From an uncultured Acholeplasmatales bacterium (lineage in GTDB: Bacteria > Bacillota_I > Bacilli_A > Acholeplasmatales > Anaeroplasmataceae): DNA of 42,247 nt. The notes beneath the pieces are model-generated. The model had not been told where the DNA came from, searched no databases, and worked only from the letters and a program-made list of their open reading frames with translations. The stretch spans positions 1 to 42,247 of the forward strand of contig CAJOQR010000134.1 in NCBI GenBank assembly GCA_905236965.1, read 5' to 3'. Shown here in pieces: positions 2,550 to 15,987 of the stretch (the stretch's first letter is position 1; each line of letters opens with the position of its first letter). The translations under genes and the position numbers were made by a program.

Positions 2550-3209
2550 ATGGAGAAGAAATTCTCAACAAAGGTTTTAGCTGAAATTGCCATCTTTGCG
2601 GCTATTGCCTTCGCACTAGATTTTTTACAAGGTGGAATATGGAGAGGAGTTTGGACCTCAGGTGGATCAATAGGATTAGCAATGGTACCAATTTTTATTA
2701 TTGCATATAGAAGAGGATTATTACCAGGAATTTTATGTGGTCTAATTGTTAGTATAATTCAAATGTTAGGTGGAGTTTATGCAATTAATGGTTCTTCATT
2801 TGAATCAACATTTATGCAAGCAATGGGACCTTTTTTCCAAATTTTACTTGATTATGTATTAGCTTATACTTTAGTTGGTATTGCAGGAGCTTTTTCTGGT
2901 TTATTTAAAAAACAAAAAAATTTTAAAGCACAAATGCTATGGTTAATTATCGGATGTGTTATTGCAGGATTATTAAAATATTTTTGTCATGTATTAGCTG
3001 GCGGTCTATTTTGGCTAAATATGGGTGGTTCTTTTGCAGGAATAAATGATTCTAGCTGGTTATATTCTTTTATATATAATGGAACATTTATGATACCTAA
3101 TATTATTATTTGCACTATAACAATGATTTTAATTAACAAAATTAATCCAGCAATTTTAAATATTGATTATGAAAATAAAGAAGAAAAGGAGGAAGATACA
3201 AATGAATAA
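2550..3209 (+). CDS. thiT: Thiamine transporter ThiT, ECF S-component
   Basis: Membrane substrate-binding subunit that captures thiamine and hands it to the shared energy-coupling module (EcfA1/A2/T), whose genes are not in this window. The 219-residue protein is hydrophobic with about six membrane segments. The ThiT-like region is visible as GGIWRGVWTSGG followed by GLAMVPIFIIAYRRG near residues 28-57, with the tryptophans and charged loop typical of the YuaJ/ThiT family. The upstream TPP riboswitch gives independent support. The ATG is preceded by AAGGAGGAA. Its last bases overlap the start of the next gene (ATG at 3202), which is preceded by GGAGG inside thiT, so the two are translationally coupled. 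Confidence 0.95.
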   Translation: MEKKFSTKVLAEIAIFAAIAFALDFLQGGIWRGVWTSGGSIGLAMVPIFIIAYRRGLLPGILCGLIVSIIQMLGGVYAINGSSFESTFMQAMGPFFQILLDYVLAYTLVGIAGAFSGLFKKQKNFKAQMLWLIIGCVIAGLLKYFCHVLAGGLFWLNMGGSFAGINDSSWLYSFIYNGTFMIPNIIICTITMILINKINPAILNIDYENKEEKEEDTNE

Positions 3210-6616: not shown

Positions 6617-7720
6617 ATGAGAGGATTATATATTCACATTCCATTTTGTAATTCAATATGCTCTTATTGCGATTTTCCTAAAATTGTTGCTAAAGAAGAT
6701 TTAAAAGAAAAATATATTAAAAGATTAATTGATGAATTAAATTCATACAATAAATATTTTGATTCTATTGATACAATTTATATTGGTGGAGGAACTCCAA
6801 ATAGTCTTTCTTTGAATAATTTAGAAAATTTATTTAAAGCTTTAGAAAAAAATATTAATTTTGATCAAATTAAAGAATTTACAATAGAATTAAATCCAGA
6901 AAATGTTGATTTAAATTTAGCTTTATTATTAAAAAAATATCATATAAATAGAGTTTCTATGGGTGCTCAAACAATTGATGATAAAACCTTAAAATTATTG
7001 AATAGAAATCATAATAAAAAAGATATTATAAATGCTATTAATGTTTTAAATAATGTAGGAATAAAAAATATAAATATAGATTTTATGTTTGGTATGCCAA
7101 ATACTAATTTAGAATTAGTAAAAAAAGATTTAAAATTTATTAATGATCTTCCAATAAAGCATGTATCTTATTATTGTTTAATTGTTGAAGATAATACAAA
7201 ATTAAATACATTAATAAAAAAAGGCCAAATTAAGCCTTTAGATGATGATTTAGAATCTGATTTATATTATTTTATTGTTAATGAAATGAAAAAGATGGGA
7301 TACCATCATTATGAAATATCTAATTTTGCTAAAGATGGATTTGAATCAATTCATAATTTAAAATATTGGAATACTTTAGAATATATAGGAATTGGTGCTG
7401 GGGCATCAGGGTATTTAGATAATATTAGATATGATAATTATAGAAGTGTTTTTAAATATTTAAATGAATTTAAAGAAAATTCTATTGAAATTAATTTAGA
7501 TGAAGAAAAAAAAGAATTTTTTATGATGGGATTAAGAAAAGTAGATGGAATATCTATAAAAGAATATAAAAATAGATTTAAATCTAATCCTTTACTTGAC
7601 TTTAATTTAAATAAGTTATTAAATAATAATCTAATACTAATCGATGATGATATTATTAGAATTAATCCCAATAATTTATTTATATCAAATATAGTTTTTG
7701 AAGAATTTGTAGGTGATTAA
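6617..7720 (+). CDS. hemW: HemW-type radical SAM protein (coproporphyrinogen oxidase-like)
   Basis: Radical SAM protein of the HemW/HemN-like family. The 4Fe-4S motif CNSICSYC is at residues 11-18 (CxxxCxxC), followed by YIGGGTPNSL and the SAM-contacting ELNPENVD. The later SMGAQTIDDKTLKLLNRNH and YHHYEISNFAK segments are characteristic of HemW, and the 367-residue length fits HemW rather than the longer HemN. HemW proteins are heme chaperones rather than true coproporphyrinogen dehydrogenases; in a genome with little heme metabolism the partner is unclear. A GCGAGG ribosome site precedes the ATG. The stop is directly followed by the xerD start at 7722, so hemW, xerD and deoB form one transcript. 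Confidence 0.9.
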   Translation: MRGLYIHIPFCNSICSYCDFPKIVAKEDLKEKYIKRLIDELNSYNKYFDSIDTIYIGGGTPNSLSLNNLENLFKALEKNINFDQIKEFTIELNPENVDLNLALLLKKYHINRVSMGAQTIDDKTLKLLNRNHNKKDIINAINVLNNVGIKNINIDFMFGMPNTNLELVKKDLKFINDLPIKHVSYYCLIVEDNTKLNTLIKKGQIKPLDDDLESDLYYFIVNEMKKMGYHHYEISNFAKDGFESIHNLKYWNTLEYIGIGAGASGYLDNIRYDNYRSVFKYLNEFKENSIEINLDEEKKEFFMMGLRKVDGISIKEYKNRFKSNPLLDFNLNKLLNNNLILIDDDIIRINPNNLFISNIVFEEFVGD

Positions 7721-7721
7721 T

Positions 7722-8648
7722 ATGGCAAGACCTAAAAAAGAAGAAGAGGAAACTTTTTTTGAAATATCAAGCTATAAATATTATTTAATTGATAAAAGAT
7801 TAAGTGATAATACAATTGATGCATATATTAGAGATTTAAATCAATACGCTATATTTATGAGAAAATATCAAAACGTTTTTGATGTAGCTGATATTGAAAG
7901 AGAAAATATAGAAAAATATATTTTATCTTTAAAAAGAAAAGAATTATCTAAACAATCTATCGCAAGAAAAATAATTGCAATAAAGGATTTTCATAATTAT
8001 TTAGTATCAGAAGAAAATTTTAAAAAAAATCCAGCAGCTCATATTTCATCACCTAAGCAAGATAAAACTTTACCTGTTGTTTTAACCCAAGAAGAAATTA
8101 CAAAAATGCTTGATTCAATTAATGGTGAAGATGATTTATCAATTAGAAATAGGGCTATGATGGAAGTATTATATGCATCAGGGTTACGTATATCTGAGCT
8201 TTTGGAATTAAAGCTTGGAAATCTTCATTTAAATGATAAATATATAACTACAATTGGAAAAGGGGATAAAGAAAGAATGATTCCAATTGGTGAAGAAGCT
8301 ATTTTTCATTTAAGAAAATATTTAAATGGTCCTAGATTAAATTTAAATAAAAATAATTCTTTATTAGTATTTTTAAATTATAAAGGCGGGCAAATGTCTA
8401 GGCAAGGATTTTATAAATATATAAAAGAATTAGCTATAGAAAATGGTATTGAAAAAGAAATATCTCCTCATACTATAAGACATTCTTTTGCAACTCACTT
8501 ATTAGAAAATGGAGTAGATTTAAGAATAGTTCAAGAATTATTGGGCCACGAAGATATTTCAACAACACAAATTTATACACATATTGATAAATCTAAGCTT
8601 AAAAATGATTATGATAAATCATTTAAAATAAATAAAAAAGGAAGTTAA
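7722..8648 (+). CDS. xerD: Tyrosine recombinase XerD-like (chromosome dimer resolution)
   Basis: Site-specific tyrosine recombinase of 308 residues with an N-terminal SAM-like core-binding domain (about 13-100) and a C-terminal catalytic domain. All catalytic residues are visible: Arg156 (GLRISELLEL), Lys180 (GKGDKER), His250 and Arg253 (HTIRHSF), His276 (LLGHEDISTTQ) and the nucleophile Tyr285 (IYTHI). The frame also offers GTG at 7713, but ATG at 7722 has AGGTGAT as ribosome site at good spacing. The lysine/glutamate-rich N-terminal extension MARPKKEEEE is slightly unusual. Xer recombinases act at dif in the terminus, and a dif-like site lies 3.5 kb downstream. XerC versus XerD is decided only by overall similarity. 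Confidence 0.9.
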   Translation: MARPKKEEEETFFEISSYKYYLIDKRLSDNTIDAYIRDLNQYAIFMRKYQNVFDVADIERENIEKYILSLKRKELSKQSIARKIIAIKDFHNYLVSEENFKKNPAAHISSPKQDKTLPVVLTQEEITKMLDSINGEDDLSIRNRAMMEVLYASGLRISELLELKLGNLHLNDKYITTIGKGDKERMIPIGEEAIFHLRKYLNGPRLNLNKNNSLLVFLNYKGGQMSRQGFYKYIKELAIENGIEKEISPHTIRHSFATHLLENGVDLRIVQELLGHEDISTTQIYTHIDKSKLKNDYDKSFKINKKGS

Positions 8649-8654
8649 TAAAAT

Positions 8655-9830
8655 ATGAAATTTAAAAGAATTTTTTTTATTGTTATGGATTCGGTTGGCT
8701 GTGGTACAGCACCTCTTTCATATCAATATAATGATGATGGTGCTAATACCATAAAACATATTTCAGAATATATGAATGGCATTAGTCTACCTACAATGGA
8801 AAAATTAGGTTATGGAAATCTAACAGAAATAAAAGGGGTTATGCCAATAAATGAATTTGGTTATTATGGAAAAATGGATGAAGCTTCTAAAGGAAAAGAT
8901 ACTCTAACAGGACATTGGGAATTTATGGGAGTTTTGACATCAAAACCATTTAAAACATTCACTGATACAGGTTTTCCAAAAGAATTAATTGACGAATTAG
9001 AACAAAAAACATCTCATAAAATTATAGGAAATTGTGCTGCTTCTGGCACTGAAATAATTAAAGAATTAGGAGAAGAACATATTAAAACAGGAAAAATGAT
9101 TGTATATACATCATCAGATTCTGTTTTACAAATAGCAGCACATGAAAAATATTTTGGTTTAGATGAATTATACCGTTGTTGTAAAATTGCAAGAGAAATT
9201 TGTATGAAAGAAGAATACATGCTAGGACGTATAATCGCAAGACCTTTTGTAGGAGAAGATAAATATACATTTACAAGAACAACAAATCGTCATGATTATG
9301 CATTATCACCAACAGATGTAACAACATTAGATAATTTAAAATCAAATGGATATGATGTTATTTCTGTTGGAAAAATTTCTGATATTTTTAATTCAAGAGG
9401 AATTACAGAATCAAATAAAATAAAATCTAATCATGATGGAATGGAAATAACAACAAAAATTGCTAAAAAAGATTTTAATGGTTTATGTTTTGTAAATTTA
9501 GTAGATTTTGATGCATTATATGGTCACAGAAGAGATCCAAAAGGATATAAAGAAGCATTAGAAGAATTTGATAAAGACTTAAATATTTTAATGAATGAAT
9601 TAAAAGAAGATGATTTATTAATAATTTCTGCAGATCATGGTAATGATCCAACATGGATTGGAACCGATCATACAAGAGAATATGTTCCTCTTTTAGTTTA
9701 TTCTAAAAAAATAAATAAAGGTAATCTAGGTTTAAGATCTACTTTTGCAGATATAGGCGCTACAATTGCAGATAATTTTAATGTTGAATTACCACATATT
9801 GGAAAATCATTTTTAAGTGAATTAAAATAA
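8655..9830 (+). CDS. deoB: Phosphopentomutase DeoB
   Basis: Interconverts ribose-1-phosphate (or deoxyribose-1-phosphate) and the 5-phosphate in nucleoside salvage. The 391-residue protein has the alkaline-phosphatase-like metal sites: [12 protein letters not shown] at the N-terminus (Asp), [10 protein letters not shown] with the phospho-accepting Thr, and near the C-terminus [10 protein letters not shown] and [14 protein letters not shown] with metal-binding Asp/His. These are the standard DeoB signatures. It follows xerD by 6 bases and ends before a hairpin terminator at 9872-9900. Together with the two uridine-kinase-type genes on the other side of the terminus it indicates active nucleoside salvage. 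Confidence 0.96.
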
Positions 9831-9985: not shown

Positions 9986-11158
9986 ATGGAAAATTTCATT
10001 TATAATACTCCCACAAGAGTTTATTTTGGAAAAGGACAAGAGAATAATCTAGGTCAAATTTTAAAATCTTATGGAATAAAAAAAGTATTATTTCATTATG
10101 GAAAAGAATCTATTAAGAAAACTGGTCTATATGATAAAGTCATTAATCAATTAAAGGCCTTTAAAATCCATTTTATAGAATTAGGAGGAGTCGAACCCAA
10201 TCCTAAGCTTTCACTAGTTTTAAAAGGCGTAGAAATAGCTAAAAAAGAAAATATAGATTTAATTTTAGCTGTTGGTGGTGGTTCTGTTTTAGATTCAGCT
10301 AAAAGCATATCAGTTGGCGCAAAGGTTGATTTTAGTCCATGGTTATTTTCAACTCATGAAAAAGAACCAACTTCCCATATTCCAGTTGCATCAATTTTAA
10401 CAATAGCAGCTTCAGGATCTGATATGAGTAATTCATGTGTAATTACAAATGATCAAACCAAAGAAAAAAGAGGATTCTCATCAGAAGAAAATAGATGCTT
10501 ATTTTCAATATTAAATCCTGAATTAACATATACAGTTTCACCATATCAAACAGCATGTGGAATAACAGATATAATGATGCATACATTAGAAAGATATTTT
10601 TCTTTAGGAAAAGAAACACCTTTAACAGATAATATTGCATTAGGATTATTAAAATCAGTTGTTGATGCAGGAAAAATAGTTATGAAAGATCCAACAAATT
10701 ATGATGCAAGAGCAACATTACTTTGGGCTAATTCATTATCACATAACACATTAACAGGTCTAGGTAGAGGCTATGTAATGAGTGTACATCAGCTTGAACA
10801 TGAATTATCAGGTATGTTTGATAATGTTAGTCATGGTGCTGGACTTGCAGTATTATGGCCAGCATGGGCAAAATTATCATTTAAAGCCACTCCAGAACGT
10901 TTTTTAAGATATTCTTATGAAGTAATGAATGTTACAAAAACAAATGATTTAGAAGCAGATATTTTAAAAGGAATAGAAAATACTAAAGAATTCTTTAAAT
11001 CTATAGGAATGCCAACAACATTAAGAGAATTAGGAATATATGAAAATTCATTTTCAAAGCTAGCAAATAATGCAATGTTTAATGGGAAAAGAGTATTAAA
11101 AGATATAATTACTGTTGACTATGAAATGGCTTTAAAAATATTTAAAGAAGCAGCATAA
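9986..11158 (+). CDS. Iron-containing alcohol dehydrogenase (butanol dehydrogenase type)
   Basis: NAD(P)H-dependent group III alcohol dehydrogenase, reducing aldehydes such as butyraldehyde or acetaldehyde during fermentation. The 390-residue protein starts MENFIYNTPTRVYFGKGQ, typical of the YugJ/YugK/BDH subgroup. It has the dinucleotide-binding VGGGSVLDSAK (about residue 96) and the metal-binding region GITDIMMHTLERYF together with MSVHQLEHELSGMFDNVSHGAGL, where Asp and three His would coordinate the metal. GGAAAAAACATAT precedes the ATG. It is monocistronic, with a terminator about 130 bases downstream. Substrate range cannot be set from sequence. It is the last + strand gene before the terminus region. 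Confidence 0.93.
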   Translation: MENFIYNTPTRVYFGKGQENNLGQILKSYGIKKVLFHYGKESIKKTGLYDKVINQLKAFKIHFIELGGVEPNPKLSLVLKGVEIAKKENIDLILAVGGGSVLDSAKSISVGAKVDFSPWLFSTHEKEPTSHIPVASILTIAASGSDMSNSCVITNDQTKEKRGFSSEENRCLFSILNPELTYTVSPYQTACGITDIMMHTLERYFSLGKETPLTDNIALGLLKSVVDAGKIVMKDPTNYDARATLLWANSLSHNTLTGLGRGYVMSVHQLEHELSGMFDNVSHGAGLAVLWPAWAKLSFKATPERFLRYSYEVMNVTKTNDLEADILKGIENTKEFFKSIGMPTTLRELGIYENSFSKLANNAMFNGKRVLKDIITVDYEMALKIFKEAA

Positions 11159-11178
11159 ATAAAATAATACTAAAATAA

Positions 11179-11208
11179 AAATTTCAGATTGTATCTAGTT
11201 TTAAAAAC
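11179..11208 (+). repeat. Terminus repeat copy A
   Basis: Family form: AAATTTCA, four variable bases, GTATCTAG, TTTTAAAAAC. Copy A has GATT as the variable part. It matches the inverted copy at 16161-16190 in 27 of 30 bases. Confidence 0.75.
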
Positions 11209-11248
11209 TAAAGAATAAAATATTAAAAATGCAAAATATAAACAATAT

Positions 11249-11272
11249 AAAATTAGATGTATTTTTAAAAAC
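11249..11272 (+). repeat. Terminus repeat copy B (lacks CTAG)
   Basis: Ends GTAT then TTTTAAAAAC, exactly the family 3' half with the four central bases CTAG missing; the 5' half is only loosely similar. Confidence 0.45.
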
Positions 11273-11290
11273 TAAATAATTCATAAAAAT

Positions 11291-11330
11291 AAAAAGTGCT
11301 TAATTTATAGATTGAATAAGCACTTTTTTT
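11291..11330 (+). terminator. Terminator downstream of alcohol dehydrogenase
   Basis: AAAAAGTGCTTA (11291-11302) pairs with TAAGCACTTTTT (11317-11328), then further Ts. It lies 130 bases past the stop codon, beyond repeat copies A and B, so those copies would be in the transcript. Confidence 0.8.
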
Positions 11331-11428
11331 TACTTTAACTAATAAGTAAAAAATAGACAAAATAATATGAAACAAAAACAATGATAGATTTAAAACACTA
11401 TATTAATAGTTGAAAAATACAGACAAAA

Positions 11429-11458
11429 AAATTTCAAAATGTATCTAGTTTTTAATAC
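11429..11458 (+). repeat. Terminus repeat copy C
   Basis: AAATTTCA, AAAT, GTATCTAG, TTTTTAATAC; 27 of 30 bases match copy F. The core continues to CTAGAT, making an inverted repeat ATCTAGT...ACTAGAT (11443-11463). Confidence 0.75.
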
Positions 11459-11554
11459 TAGATGAAAAATATTTTCATATAAAAGTTGTATAAAATTAAA
11501 TTATGCAAACGCTTTTATGAAAAAAATTTAAATATACAAATGCAAAATAAATGA

Positions 11555-11572
11555 GTATCTAGTATTTAAAAC
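11555..11572 (+). repeat. Terminus repeat copy D (3' half)
   Basis: GTATCTAG then TATTTAAAAC; 16 of 18 bases match the family 3' half. It continues to CTAGAT and forms the same ATCTAGT...ACTAGAT inverted repeat as copy C. Confidence 0.6.
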
Positions 11573-11690
11573 TAGATAAATAAACAGAAAGTAATTATTA
11601 AATCACTTTAATTTAAAATAAAGAAACTATATAAATTTAATTAAAATTATTAAGATAATAGTAGCTTACAGCAGAAGAATCAACAAAGAA

Positions 11691-11720
11691 AAATTTCAAA
11701 ATGCAAATAGTTTTTAAAAC
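11691..11720 (+). repeat. Terminus repeat copy E
   Basis: AAATTTCA, AAAT, then GCAAATAG and TTTTTAAAAC; the palindromic centre is altered but the 5' half is identical to copy C. Confidence 0.65.
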
Positions 11721-12058
11721 TAAATATAAGAATTATAAAAAATAATAAATGAGATATAAAATAACATATATTTTTTAGCTATTTTTCATTCAATAATAGA
11801 CTAAAAATTAATTTCCCATTATAGGAGCAAAAATTCATAAAACGTAAAATCAGCAAACGAGAATAAAAAATATGGATAATTATACATCTCGATTAATATA
11901 ATTTAGTTCCAATTTTAACATCAACTGCAGAAAAACATACTCATGATTTAGAATTTGAATATAAATGCTGGTACGAGATGCTCAAAAAACATATCCAAAA
12001 TCGCAAATCTAAAATTAGCTGATCGTGTATCAGAATGCAATTATTAAAACTTCAAAAA

Positions 12059-12067
12059 TGTGGATAA
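12059..12067 (-). promoter_or_regulatory. Consensus DnaA-box 9-mer near dif
   Basis: TTATCCACA on the minus strand, the perfect DnaA-box consensus. A one-mismatch form (TTATCCATA) is at 11871-11879. A single box could occur by chance, and there is no cluster to suggest an origin. Confidence 0.3.
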
Positions 12068-12202
12068 GTATAAATTGCATATTTTAATGAAAACGCTTAA
12101 TTTTTCCTTTATTTAAGCCATTTTTTAAGATAGAGCAATATAACATTTACAGCACTAATTCACAAAAATCTATTTTTTGGCTTATTTACTATTCTTTTTA
12201 TT

Positions 12203-12230
12203 GGTTTACATAATATATATTATGATAACT
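12203..12230 (-). other. dif-like site (XerC/XerD recombination site at the terminus)
   Basis: Read on the minus strand: XerC-side arm AGTTATCATAA, centre TATATA, XerD-side arm TTATGTAAACC. From memory the Bacillus subtilis dif has arms ACTTCCTATAA and TTATGTAAACT around the same TATATA centre. By that alignment the XerD arm matches in 10 of 11, the centre in 6 of 6, the XerC arm in 7 of 11. The inner half-sites are the expected inverted repeat ATAA...TTAT. Supporting context: convergent gene orientation, A/T skew reversal at this place, no intact gene for 1.9 kb, and xerD nearby. Confidence 0.85.
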
Positions 12231-12237
12231 TATTTAT

Positions 12238-12540
12238 TTATTTGAAACTTCTAATAAACGCTTCTAAAATAATAAAAGAAGTATATTTGATATAGTTTAT
12301 TACGTTTTTTAAGGCTAATTCTTCTTCTCAAACGTGTTCATATTAATTTATTTGGATATGTTTAGCAAATAATTCAAAAAACTCATAAGCAACGAAAAAT
12401 CCTTTTACAGACATTTCTTCGCGTCATCTGTTCATTTGCCTGTGTTTTACATCAACAACGGTTTAAAAGGCTTTTAAGATATTTTTTAATTTAGCTGGTT
12501 CCGAAGCCGATGTCTACTTCTTCTACTCTCTTTTATGTGT
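12238..12540 (-). pseudogene. Possible decayed gene next to dif
   Basis: One minus-strand frame reads like protein over about 100 codons but is broken by six or so stops. Segments include SASEPAKLKNILKAF, TVVDVKHRQMNR, REEMSVKGFFVAYEFFELFA and EEELALKNVINYIKYTSFI. The frame ends with TAA 7 bases before the dif-like site. Around 12410-12540 the G+C is visibly higher than in the flanks. I do not recognise the family. It may be a remnant of an element once inserted at dif, or merely chance. Confidence 0.25.
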
Positions 12541-12560
12541 CCCTTATTTTTGATTTCGTT

Positions 12561-12581
12561 TATGAAAATTTATGAAAATAA
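12561..12581 (+). repeat. Inverted repeat, left copy
   Basis: 21 bases, TATGAAAATT followed by TATGAAAATAA, exactly reverse-complementary to 12934-12954. It is itself a tandem of a 10-base unit, so low complexity may explain the match. Confidence 0.45.
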
Positions 12582-12710
12582 GCTTTTTTAGCTCTATTTT
12601 TACAATATAATAATACGAGTTTTATTAGGATTCACCATTATGTTTTATATAAATAGTATCCTAATTTATGTTTTTTTAATTAAAATCAGCAAAAATAATA
12701 AGTTTTTTAT

Positions 12711-12730
12711 TTGATACATTATTTATGCCA
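12711..12730 (+). repeat. Right-side direct repeat, copy 1
   Basis: TTGATACATTATTTATGCCA; 17 of 20 bases match the copy at 13000-13019. Confidence 0.5.
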
Positions 12731-12898
12731 AGTTTTAATAGATCATTGTTTCTTACTTTACTTTATATAATAATTCTATATTTTAATCATTTATATTCAA
12801 TATCTATGGAGTTTATACTTATTACGCATTTTTTGTTTTTTATATTATCATACATATAATTTTAGATCTTATTTTTGACTTTTTTATTATATAACATA

Positions 12899-12918
12899 TT
12901 TATACATTAATTATGTCT
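12899..12918 (+). repeat. Right-side direct repeat, copy 2
   Basis: TTTATACATTAATTATGTCT; one base differs from the copy at 13000-13019. Confidence 0.65.
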
Positions 12919-12933
12919 ATTACTTTTTTATTT

Positions 12934-12954
12934 TTATTTTCATAAATTTTCATA
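12934..12954 (-). repeat. Inverted repeat, right copy
   Basis: Exact reverse complement of 12561-12581, 352 bases away. Confidence 0.45.
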
Positions 12955-12999
12955 GTTTTTATAAAATGATAAAATTTGTAATTTTTATGTCATTTTACA

Positions 13000-13019
13000 T
13001 TTATACATTATTTATGTCT
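13000..13019 (+). repeat. Right-side direct repeat, copy 3
   Basis: TTTATACATTATTTATGTCT; the similarity to copy 2 extends a few bases on both sides. Confidence 0.65.
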
Positions 13020-13030
13020 TATTTTGCAAA

Positions 13031-13058
13031 CGAAAAAAATGAGGGTTTCCCAACCCTC
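13031..13058 (-). terminator. Terminator of the Fic-like gene
   Basis: GAGGGTT (13041-13047), loop of 4, AACCCTC (13052-13058). On the minus strand the hairpin is followed by a run of seven Ts (13033-13040 region). Confidence 0.85.
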
Positions 13059-13077
13059 TATATATACTAGATAATAG

Positions 13078-14154
13078 TTATTTCATTTCATTTAAATCAA
13101 ATAATGTGATTTGTTTCCCTTTAGCATTAAAAATTTCATCTACTACAGTTTTATTCCAAGTGGCAGATCTGCCTGTTCCATTAGAAATAATTTTGCCTTC
13201 TTCTTGAAGAGATGCTAAAGCTCTATTTATTGTTGTTTGAGAAATATAAGGATACATTTGACTTATTTGAGCTTTTGTAAATGTCTGTGGTAATTTCATG
13301 ATTGCTGCTTTTACATTATCAATTTTATAAAGCTTTTTGTCAAAATCAGTGTCTTGAATCATTTTTTCAACATTTGTGTAACCTTCATTAAGCATTGAAA
13401 TAATTAGCTTATTTAAATCATCTGTATTAGAAAATCCAGTTTCCCATCTATAGCTTGCTTTAGCTTGAGCTTGAATGAATTCATCTTTATGATCAATATA
13501 CATCTTAAAAAAGCTTACATATTTAAAAACATTAAATCTTTGTCTAAATAATAAACAATATAAAATAAGTAAAGATAATTCTTCATTATAAGAAGAAAAT
13601 ATTTTTTGATTTAAAATATCTACATAAAAATTTGTAACAAGTAAAGTAGTTTCTACAGTTTCATCATCTAATTTTTTAGCATATAAATTTAATTCTTCTT
13701 TTAGCTTTTCTCTTTTTGATTCAAGCCTTTTTTCTGTAATTAAATTTAATTGATATTCAACCGTCTCATTAGTATAATCAATTCTTGTGTGATTTTTAAA
13801 AATTCTTATTCCTAATTGTAAGAATTCATTTGTTGTTAATTCAATTGATTCTGATTTTGATTGAATTAGTTCAAATACCGTTTTAAGATTTTTTACAACA
13901 ATTTCATCTTTTGTTTTAGGTGTTGAATCTTTTTTTATTAATAATTTAAATCTATTTTCAGAAACATTTAAATTTAATATTTTTGAAAAATATAATGTAT
14001 CAGTTTCAATGGTTGTCCTAATTATTCCATCAATATGATTTTTTAAAAAATCTTCATAAAAAAAATCTTTTCCTTTAAACTGATATAATTTTGTTAAATC
14101 CATAACCAATTCGATTGGGTATGTTGCTCTTTCAACATTACTTAAACATTTCAT
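13078..14154 (-). CDS. Fic-like protein without the Fic motif, with C-terminal winged helix
   Basis: Fic enzymes transfer AMP or other groups to target proteins through HPFxDGNGR. This 358-residue protein aligns with the Fic C-terminal half. LLILYCLLFRQRFNVFKYVS corresponds to the helix after the active site, and the DEFIQAQAKASYRWETG stretch to the usual YYEAL...W region. FTKAQISQMYPYISQTTINR then starts a winged helix-turn-helix (about residues 295-350), as in many Fic proteins. At the active-site position it reads KIFSSYNEE, so His, the acidic residue, both glycines and Arg are lost while Phe and Asn remain. It is therefore probably a catalytically dead, DNA-binding relative. The frame also opens at TTG 14166 and ATG 14160; ATG 14154 has GGTGA at good spacing. 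Assignment is by eye and needs structure prediction. Confidence 0.6.
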   Translation of the reverse strand: MKCLSNVERATYPIELVMDLTKLYQFKGKDFFYEDFLKNHIDGIIRTTIETDTLYFSKILNLNVSENRFKLLIKKDSTPKTKDEIVVKNLKTVFELIQSKSESIELTTNEFLQLGIRIFKNHTRIDYTNETVEYQLNLITEKRLESKREKLKEELNLYAKKLDDETVETTLLVTNFYVDILNQKIFSSYNEELSLLILYCLLFRQRFNVFKYVSFFKMYIDHKDEFIQAQAKASYRWETGFSNTDDLNKLIISMLNEGYTNVEKMIQDTDFDKKLYKIDNVKAAIMKLPQTFTKAQISQMYPYISQTTINRALASLQEEGKIISNGTGRSATWNKTVVDEIFNAKGKQITLFDLNEMK

Positions 14155-14179
14155 TTCCATCACCAATTTTCATATAAAA

Positions 14180-14340: not shown

Positions 14341-15987
14341 TTAGCATTTATCTTCTGTATAAAATATTGAACCACCAATAAACTCTCTTAAAATTGAATT
14401 ACATGGAACCCATTTATCAGATATAGGAGTAAAATATTTTAAAAATTTTAAAAGTCTATTTGCAGTAATATAATGTGGGGAATCTTCTTTTATTTCTGAT
14501 AATAATTTAATAGCATATTTACTCATAACGCAAAGCTCATATCCTAATTCTGAATTAAATACAAAATCTGCATCATTTTGGTATGGATAAATCCATTTAA
14601 ATTCGCCAGCTCTAACTGATGGCCAAAATTCTAATGTTCTTTCACATGTTGTTCCACGATAATTATAATCTCTTACCATTCTTCTTATTAATCTTAAATC
14701 TGAAATAGAAATAGGATTTCTCTCATCTATTCTATATTGAATTAATGGCGCAATATAAATTTTAAATTTTTCTTCATGAGCAATTGATGGAGTTAAATCA
14801 TCATTTAATGCATGAATACCCTCAATTAAAATTGGTTGATTATGCATTAATTTTATAGGCTCTGAAAAGCTTCTTGTTTTAGTTGTAAAATCATATGTTG
14901 GTAATGATACTTTTTCACCTTGAATTAAATTATACATACATTCATTGAATAATTTTCTATCTAATGCATCTATATCTTCAAAATCAGGCTTTCCATCAGC
15001 GCCTAAAGGGCATAAATCAGGATGCTTATAAAAGTTATCAATTGATATCATTAAAGGATTAATGCCTCTGCTCATAAGTTCTATTCTAAGTCTATTTGTA
15101 AAAGTAGTTTTTCCACTTGATGAAGGACCAGCAACACAAATTAATTTAATATCTTCAATTTTGTTTTGAATTTTTTGGCCTAAATCAGAAAGCTGCCTAT
15201 TGTGACGTGTTTCACATATATTCATAAATTCTAGTGCTTTTCCTTGCTCAATTATCTCATTGAAATCAGAAATATAAGAAGCCTTTGAAATATTAGTCCA
15301 ACGATTAGCCTCCTTTAATGAATTTCTAAATACTCTTTCATCTTGAAATTCAGGAATTTCTCCTAATGTCTCACTTCTAGGATATGTAATTAAAAATCCT
15401 GGAGTATATAATTTTAAAGAATATTTTTTTAAATACCCAGTTGAAGAAAGCATATATCCAAACATATAATCCATAAATCCATTACATTCATAAACATGAA
15501 CTTTATCTTCTTTGCGATATTTTAATATTTTTACTTTCTCATCAGCACCTAAATCTTTATATAACTTTAATGCTTCATCTTTTGTTATAGTAGATCTTAC
15601 TATAGGATAATCAGCATTAATAATATTTTCTAATTCTTTTTGAACCAAATCTAAATCAGATTGTAAAAAAGGATGCCCTAAATTTGAAACTGAGGCAAAA
15701 ATAGCCCTTGATACACTATAATTATAAGTTAATTTTGCTTTAGGATATACATTATGTAATGCCATAAATACTAAAAATCTCAAAGTTGATTGATATATTC
15801 TACATACATCTGAATCTTCTAAACCTAAAAGTTCAATATTTGCATCATCAGATACTATATACCTTAGTTCTCTTAATCGATTATTTACCTTAGCAGCCAT
15901 ATATTTATAATCATTATTATCAATAAATTCTAATATTCTTTTAGGTTTTTCTAATATAATTTCCTTTCCTTGTAATTTGATTTTCAT
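14341..15987 (-). CDS. Nucleoside kinase with TGS/threonyl-tRNA-synthetase-like N-terminus
   Basis: A 548-residue protein in three parts. The first 60 residues resemble a TGS domain (KIKLQGKEIILEKPKRILEF). Residues about 60-230 resemble the second additional domain of threonyl-tRNA synthetase, with LGHPF in place of its metal motif. The C-terminal half is a uridine-kinase-like P-loop kinase. The kinase has Walker A GPSSSGKTTF near residue 285, the IDNFYKHPD substrate loop and ILIEGIHALND. This fusion is common in Bacillota as a predicted uridine/cytidine kinase, distinct from the short Udk at 20225. It may be a nucleoside kinase with a non-catalytic RNA-related module; the role of the N-terminus is unknown. 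The ribosome site is AGAGGTG. It is the first gene right of the Fic-like gene and has a long 282-base leader. Confidence 0.87.
   Translation of the reverse strand: MKIKLQGKEIILEKPKRILEFIDNNDYKYMAAKVNNRLRELRYIVSDDANIELLGLEDSDVCRIYQSTLRFLVFMALHNVYPKAKLTYNYSVSRAIFASVSNLGHPFLQSDLDLVQKELENIINADYPIVRSTITKDEALKLYKDLGADEKVKILKYRKEDKVHVYECNGFMDYMFGYMLSSTGYLKKYSLKLYTPGFLITYPRSETLGEIPEFQDERVFRNSLKEANRWTNISKASYISDFNEIIEQGKALEFMNICETRHNRQLSDLGQKIQNKIEDIKLICVAGPSSSGKTTFTNRLRIELMSRGINPLMISIDNFYKHPDLCPLGADGKPDFEDIDALDRKLFNECMYNLIQGEKVSLPTYDFTTKTRSFSEPIKLMHNQPILIEGIHALNDDLTPSIAHEEKFKIYIAPLIQYRIDERNPISISDLRLIRRMVRDYNYRGTTCERTLEFWPSVRAGEFKWIYPYQNDADFVFNSELGYELCVMSKYAIKLLSEIKEDSPHYITANRLLKFLKYFTPISDKWVPCNSILREFIGGSIFYTEDKC

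Follow-up and report, generated by a model that had tools for sequence, protein, structure and literature searches.

The locus and its dif site

The window analysed here is the entire contig C134, 42,247 nucleotides of a draft genome of 1.5 Mb in 146 contigs, which is about 83% complete and has a GC content of approximately 23%. The genome belongs to an uncultured bacterium of the Anaeroplasma type; Anaeroplasma is assigned to the Mollicutes by NCBI. The following features of the window are referred to throughout.

2380-2480: TPP riboswitch (Rfam), upstream of a ThiT/YuaJ-type thiamine transporter (2550-3209)
7713..8648, plus strand: xerD, 311 aa, transcribed toward dif; TIGR02225, 349 bits vs a cut-off of 329.6
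8655..9830, plus strand: deoB (phosphopentomutase), directly 3' of xerD; the pair is kept in relatives
11159..13077: non-coding gap of 1.9 kb between converging genes, A-rich to the left and T-rich to the right of dif
11670..12328: interval in which the AGNAGAAG octamers switch orientation (last plus copy at 11670, first minus copy at 12328); contains dif
12203..12230, minus strand: predicted dif site, 28 bp; XerC arm AGTTATCATAA, centre TATATA, XerD arm TTATGTAAACC
12203..12213, minus strand: XerD-side arm TTATGTAAACC, turned toward the xerD gene
12220..12230, minus strand: XerC-side arm AGTTATCATAA, assigned by homology with the B. subtilis dif
13078..14166, minus strand: protein of 362 aa with no assigned family, on the opposite side of dif, conserved in most compared family genomes
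14341..15987, minus strand: uridine-kinase-like protein of 548 aa (PF00485), a conserved neighbour

Based on the letters of the window, the initial annotation had proposed a probable dif on the minus strand, consisting of two arms around TATATA, with genes converging on it and xerD about 3.5 kb away. The 28-base site is present at 12203-12230, and the ORFs ending at 11158 (plus strand) and 13078 (minus strand) confirm the convergence. The distance from the end of xerD to dif measures about 3.55 kb, and the xerD product scores above the XerD equivalog cut-off. By eye, its motifs ASGLRISE, GKGDKERMIP, HTIRHSFATHLL, LGH, and YTH hold the R-K-H-R-H-Y set of tyrosine recombinases. Besides the TPP riboswitch, the Rfam search over the window returned nothing. 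Left of dif, a palindromic repeat similar to GTATCTAGTTTTTAAAACTAGAT occurs three times in the gap (11191-11219, 11441-11469, and 11555-11583).

The 28-mer has an 11-6-11 layout and partial dyad symmetry, the inner arm bases CATAA/TTATG being exactly complementary. It is identical at 22 of 28 positions to the dif of B. subtilis, ACTTCCTAGAATATATATTATGTAAACT, as printed in PMC3025954. Length, layout, two recombinases (CodV/RipX in B. subtilis), and location at the terminus are further common traits, and the likeness described in the initial annotation is correct: the centre TATATA is identical, and a single base sets the two XerD arms apart. The difference lies in the XerC arm, in which 5 of 11 bases are unlike; here the B. 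subtilis arm ACTTCCTAGAA is nearer to ACTTCCTATAA, found in other genera of the family, than to the arm of the window. As a null model, we generated 200 first-order Markov sequences with the composition of the window and recorded the best match to the B. subtilis dif in each. A best match of 22 occurred in only 2 of them (p approximately 0.01 per window), so that similarity, taken without conservation, uniqueness, and position, is suggestive of dif rather than decisive.

An exact or near-exact search of the bacterium's own genome found the site once. We also scanned this genome with a 28-position dif profile, which yielded no better match than the window site; the latter scored 25.1 bits, a value that is not independent of the profile because the profile contains the sequence of the window. 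The second-ranking candidate, with a partial profile match (C10:11537, 21.6 bits), was rejected, as it lies inside a coding ORF of the CDP-alcohol-phosphotransferase-like type.

Conservation of the site and position of the terminus

Among 55 genomes of the family, 42 contain the core dif motif, one copy each; the number rises to 43 if the site AGTTCCTATAATGTATATTATGTTAACC of a further family member (G054) is counted. The only Xer gene seen in nine of the genomes lacking a site is of the xerC type; the stretch with xerD and dif may therefore just be absent from their assemblies. At the level of the class, a profile search found a match in 131 of 198 genomes, almost always exactly one. Across the family, information amounts to 1.44 bits per position inside the 28-mer vs 0.2-0.7 bits outside.

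The genus of the window carries AGTTATCATAATATATATTATGTAAACC, or the same sequence ending in TTAACC; in the majority of the remaining genera the site reads ACTTCCTATAATATATATTATGTTAACC, which is nearer to the B. subtilis dif. The XerC arm is genus-specific, AGTTATCATAA in the genus of the window vs ACTTCCTATAA in most others, and the former renders the site more palindromic.

On the XerD side, conservation does not end with the 28-mer. Counted outward from the XerD arm, most of 36 family sites have G or C in positions +22 to +24, a run of T from +26 to +31, and GTG in positions +40 to +42, the last resembling a TGTGGATAA-like box; in the window, this stretch (+21 to +46) corresponds to 12157-12182 on the minus strand. 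Possible readings of it are an accessory binding site, a degenerate terminator, and a DnaA-box-like element. DnaA-box-like TGTGGATAA occurs 7 times within 300 bp of dif over 18 genomes, too few to judge. For a dyad located approximately 18 bp beyond the XerD arm, we considered the possibility of a covarying hairpin and dropped it, since by eye its inner positions do not covary. Several sites in related Bacilli MAGs (L120, L121, L130, and L133) carry CCACA-type boxes, e.g., TTTTCCACA, just beyond the XerC arm.

The GC skew of the window turns from plus to minus at about 12 kb. It is positive to the left and negative to the right of the site in all 18 family genomes with sufficient flanking sequence, and on a 665-kb contig of one relative (G027) this holds for each sampled 10-kb bin. 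G216, a complete, single-contig relative, is ambiguous as a skew control: its skew switches at dif and also near 0.4 Mb, and from about 0.4 to 1.05 Mb of contig C1 the polarity is inverted over roughly 650 kb, a pattern that either a large inversion or a misassembly could explain. We therefore used the complete genomes G141 and G209 of the same order, in both of which dif is the sole plus-to-minus switch among the sampled stretches. Since the assembly at hand is a fragmented draft, we infer the location of the terminus on this chromosome from the window and its relatives. The mean AT skew over 18 genomes attains +0.19 and -0.18 in the 1.5 kb next to dif, roughly double its value at greater distance.

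Sites resembling dif are used by mobile elements of the IMEX or plasmid type, and the non-coding gap in which the 28-mer lies varies in length among genomes. The site might accordingly be the Xer-dependent attachment site of an integrated element rather than a chromosomal dif, a reading that we consider very improbable: each genome has one copy with no duplicated dif bracketing an insert, ordinary core genes lie on both sides, the neighbours are the same across the family, and the skew switches at the site. Still less credible is that the 28-mer is an AT-rich palindrome arisen by chance or a terminator shared by two converging operons. Although the genome is poor in GC, the site lies between convergent genes, and some relatives have hairpin-plus-T-run elements just beyond the XerD arm, the 28-mer is strongly kept across the family amid variable flanks and does not consist of a G+C-rich stem followed by a T-run.

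The 28-mer is thus almost certainly the chromosomal dif of this bacterium, situated at the replication terminus. The probable dif of the initial annotation finds its support in the single copy, in the recurrence of the site in related genomes, once in each and at the same place, and in the skew switch of the relatives, two complete chromosomes included. As such, the site is ordinary; a chromosomal dif served by XerC and XerD is an already known class of site.

Recombination machinery and a candidate FtsK-orienting octamer

Both cognate recombinases are represented in the genome, XerD above its cut-off and a XerC-like partner below its own. The latter, located on contig C23, matches the XerC model best, with 300.8 bits against an equivalog cut-off of 335; scores below this cut-off are found for most second Xer genes of these genomes. 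One FtsK gamma domain (66 bits) was identified in the genome. As judged by homology, XerC and XerD very probably cut joined chromosomes apart at the window site, and their binding, the order of strand exchange, and activation by FtsK are predicted on the same grounds.

Of 5983 octamers that occur at least 40 times in 880 kb of family flanks, none is biased toward dif as strongly as AGAAGAAG, with 154 copies pointing toward the site and 2 away from it; since the genomes are related, these counts are not wholly independent. Genes, too, are preferentially directed toward dif, so that coding bias could contribute. In opposite-strand genes and non-coding DNA, AGAAGAAG shows a ratio of 51:0 toward dif, compared to 587:324 for all other octamers of five A and three G in the same regions. 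Its strand bias is present on both arms and independent of gene orientation, as a motif that orients FtsK would be expected to show. In the window, all 12 copies of AGAAGAAG point at the site, as do all 20 AGNAGAAG octamers; over 18 genomes the ratio for AGNAGAAG is 295:8.

Known FtsK-orienting motifs are KOPS (GGGNAGGG), SRS (GAGAAGGG), and GAAGAAG of L. lactis (PMC6466248; the L. lactis motif reads GAGAAG in the methods text and GAAGAAG in a figure legend of that paper). Like these, AGAAGAAG is short, purine-rich, and aimed at dif on both replichores. GAAGAAG is contained within it, with the difference that the additional 5' A makes the motif far stricter here (154:2 vs 381:32 for GAAGAAG). 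SRS is rare in the family flanks, with a ratio of 9:0 in 880 kb. We regard AGAAGAAG as a strong candidate for the FtsK-orienting motif of the family, to which FtsK presumably binds.

These elements can be arranged in a putative course of events. An odd number of crossovers would fuse sister chromosomes to a dimer, whose DNA would be pumped toward dif by septal FtsK, steered by the AGAAGAAG purine octamers pointing at dif on both arms. Once the two dif copies meet, XerC would occupy AGTTATCATAA and XerD TTATGTAAACC, the FtsK gamma domain would activate XerD, and strand exchange across TATATA, in two successive rounds, would release separate monomers.

A literature search for Anaeroplasma and dif returned unrelated papers only. 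A poorly studied and largely uncultured family gains a computationally tested dif, a likely FtsK-orienting octamer, and a terminus position.

The xerD-deoB-dif neighbourhood

In all 35 family genomes with xerD and dif on one contig, the two are separated by 2.3-6.2 kb, xerD is transcribed toward dif, and dif is oriented with its XerD arm toward xerD. From the class sample of 198 genomes, 85 were resolvable, i.e., dif and xerD share a contig; under the strict xerD threshold, 23 dif-bearing genomes have no xerD above it. In 69 of the 85 resolvable genomes, no more than 10 kb separate xerD from dif; these 69 come from 12 families and all share one orientation. The site also belongs to an ancient xerD-deoB-dif neighbourhood of fixed orientation in this lineage. 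At least two Xer genes were present in each of the 17 linked genomes checked, the second Xer not being located beside dif.

In B. subtilis, we take ripX to lie far from dif, a difference to the lineage of the window, where xerD adjoins the site. Closer parallels in this respect are XerS/difSL of streptococci and lactococci and XerH/difH of epsilon-proteobacteria, in which the recombinase gene adjoins the terminus site and is genetically linked to it (PMC5357621, PMC2731167); in reviews, linkage of this kind is treated as a potential hallmark of systems with one recombinase. Those systems differ in that they employ a single recombinase, whereas the genome of the window has two Xer genes, of which only xerD is linked. 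Furthermore, difSL comprises 31 bp with an 11-bp centre, in contrast to the canonical 28 bp and 6-bp centre found here. The recombinase of the window is not an ortholog of XerS either, scoring 108.5 bits with the XerS model (cut-off 267) and best, at 349 bits, with the XerD model.

A fixed position of xerD beside dif across a dozen families appears to be undescribed. The open-access literature that we searched yielded no description of gene-site linkage for XerCD, which does not prove its absence elsewhere.

Little local rearrangement at the terminus could by itself have kept xerD near dif, with no functional link between them. deoB has been retained near dif as well, within the family also the genes of 362 and 548 aa, and in three families (f13, f14, and f22) xerD is found at the looser but still regional distance of 51-235 kb from dif. 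On the other hand, xerD and dif have remained neighbours in a single orientation throughout the 12 families, although gene order otherwise differs greatly from family to family; outside the window's own family, neither the 362-aa nor the 548-aa gene was found near deoB. We consider this explanation of the linkage, without a functional tie, about as likely as not. We lean slightly toward the proposal that a two-recombinase XerCD system forms a linked xerD-deoB-dif module whose polarity is fixed and which was already present in the ancestor of a large group of low-GC Bacilli and Mollicutes-type lineages.

The conserved xerD-dif linkage calls into question the view that single-recombinase systems alone keep gene and site together. 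If the ancestral module is real, recombinase-site linkage is no hallmark of such systems, and linked XerCD precursors become possible for modules of the XerS/difSL type.

Among public named contigs, the order xerD-deoB-dif recurs in MAGs of Bacilli, Coprobacillus, and Erysipelotrichaceae, while other Erysipelotrichaceae MAGs have xerD-deoB with no dif nearby. For draft genomes of the group, the neighbourhood offers a simple dif finder: the site is to be sought just 3' of xerD-deoB.
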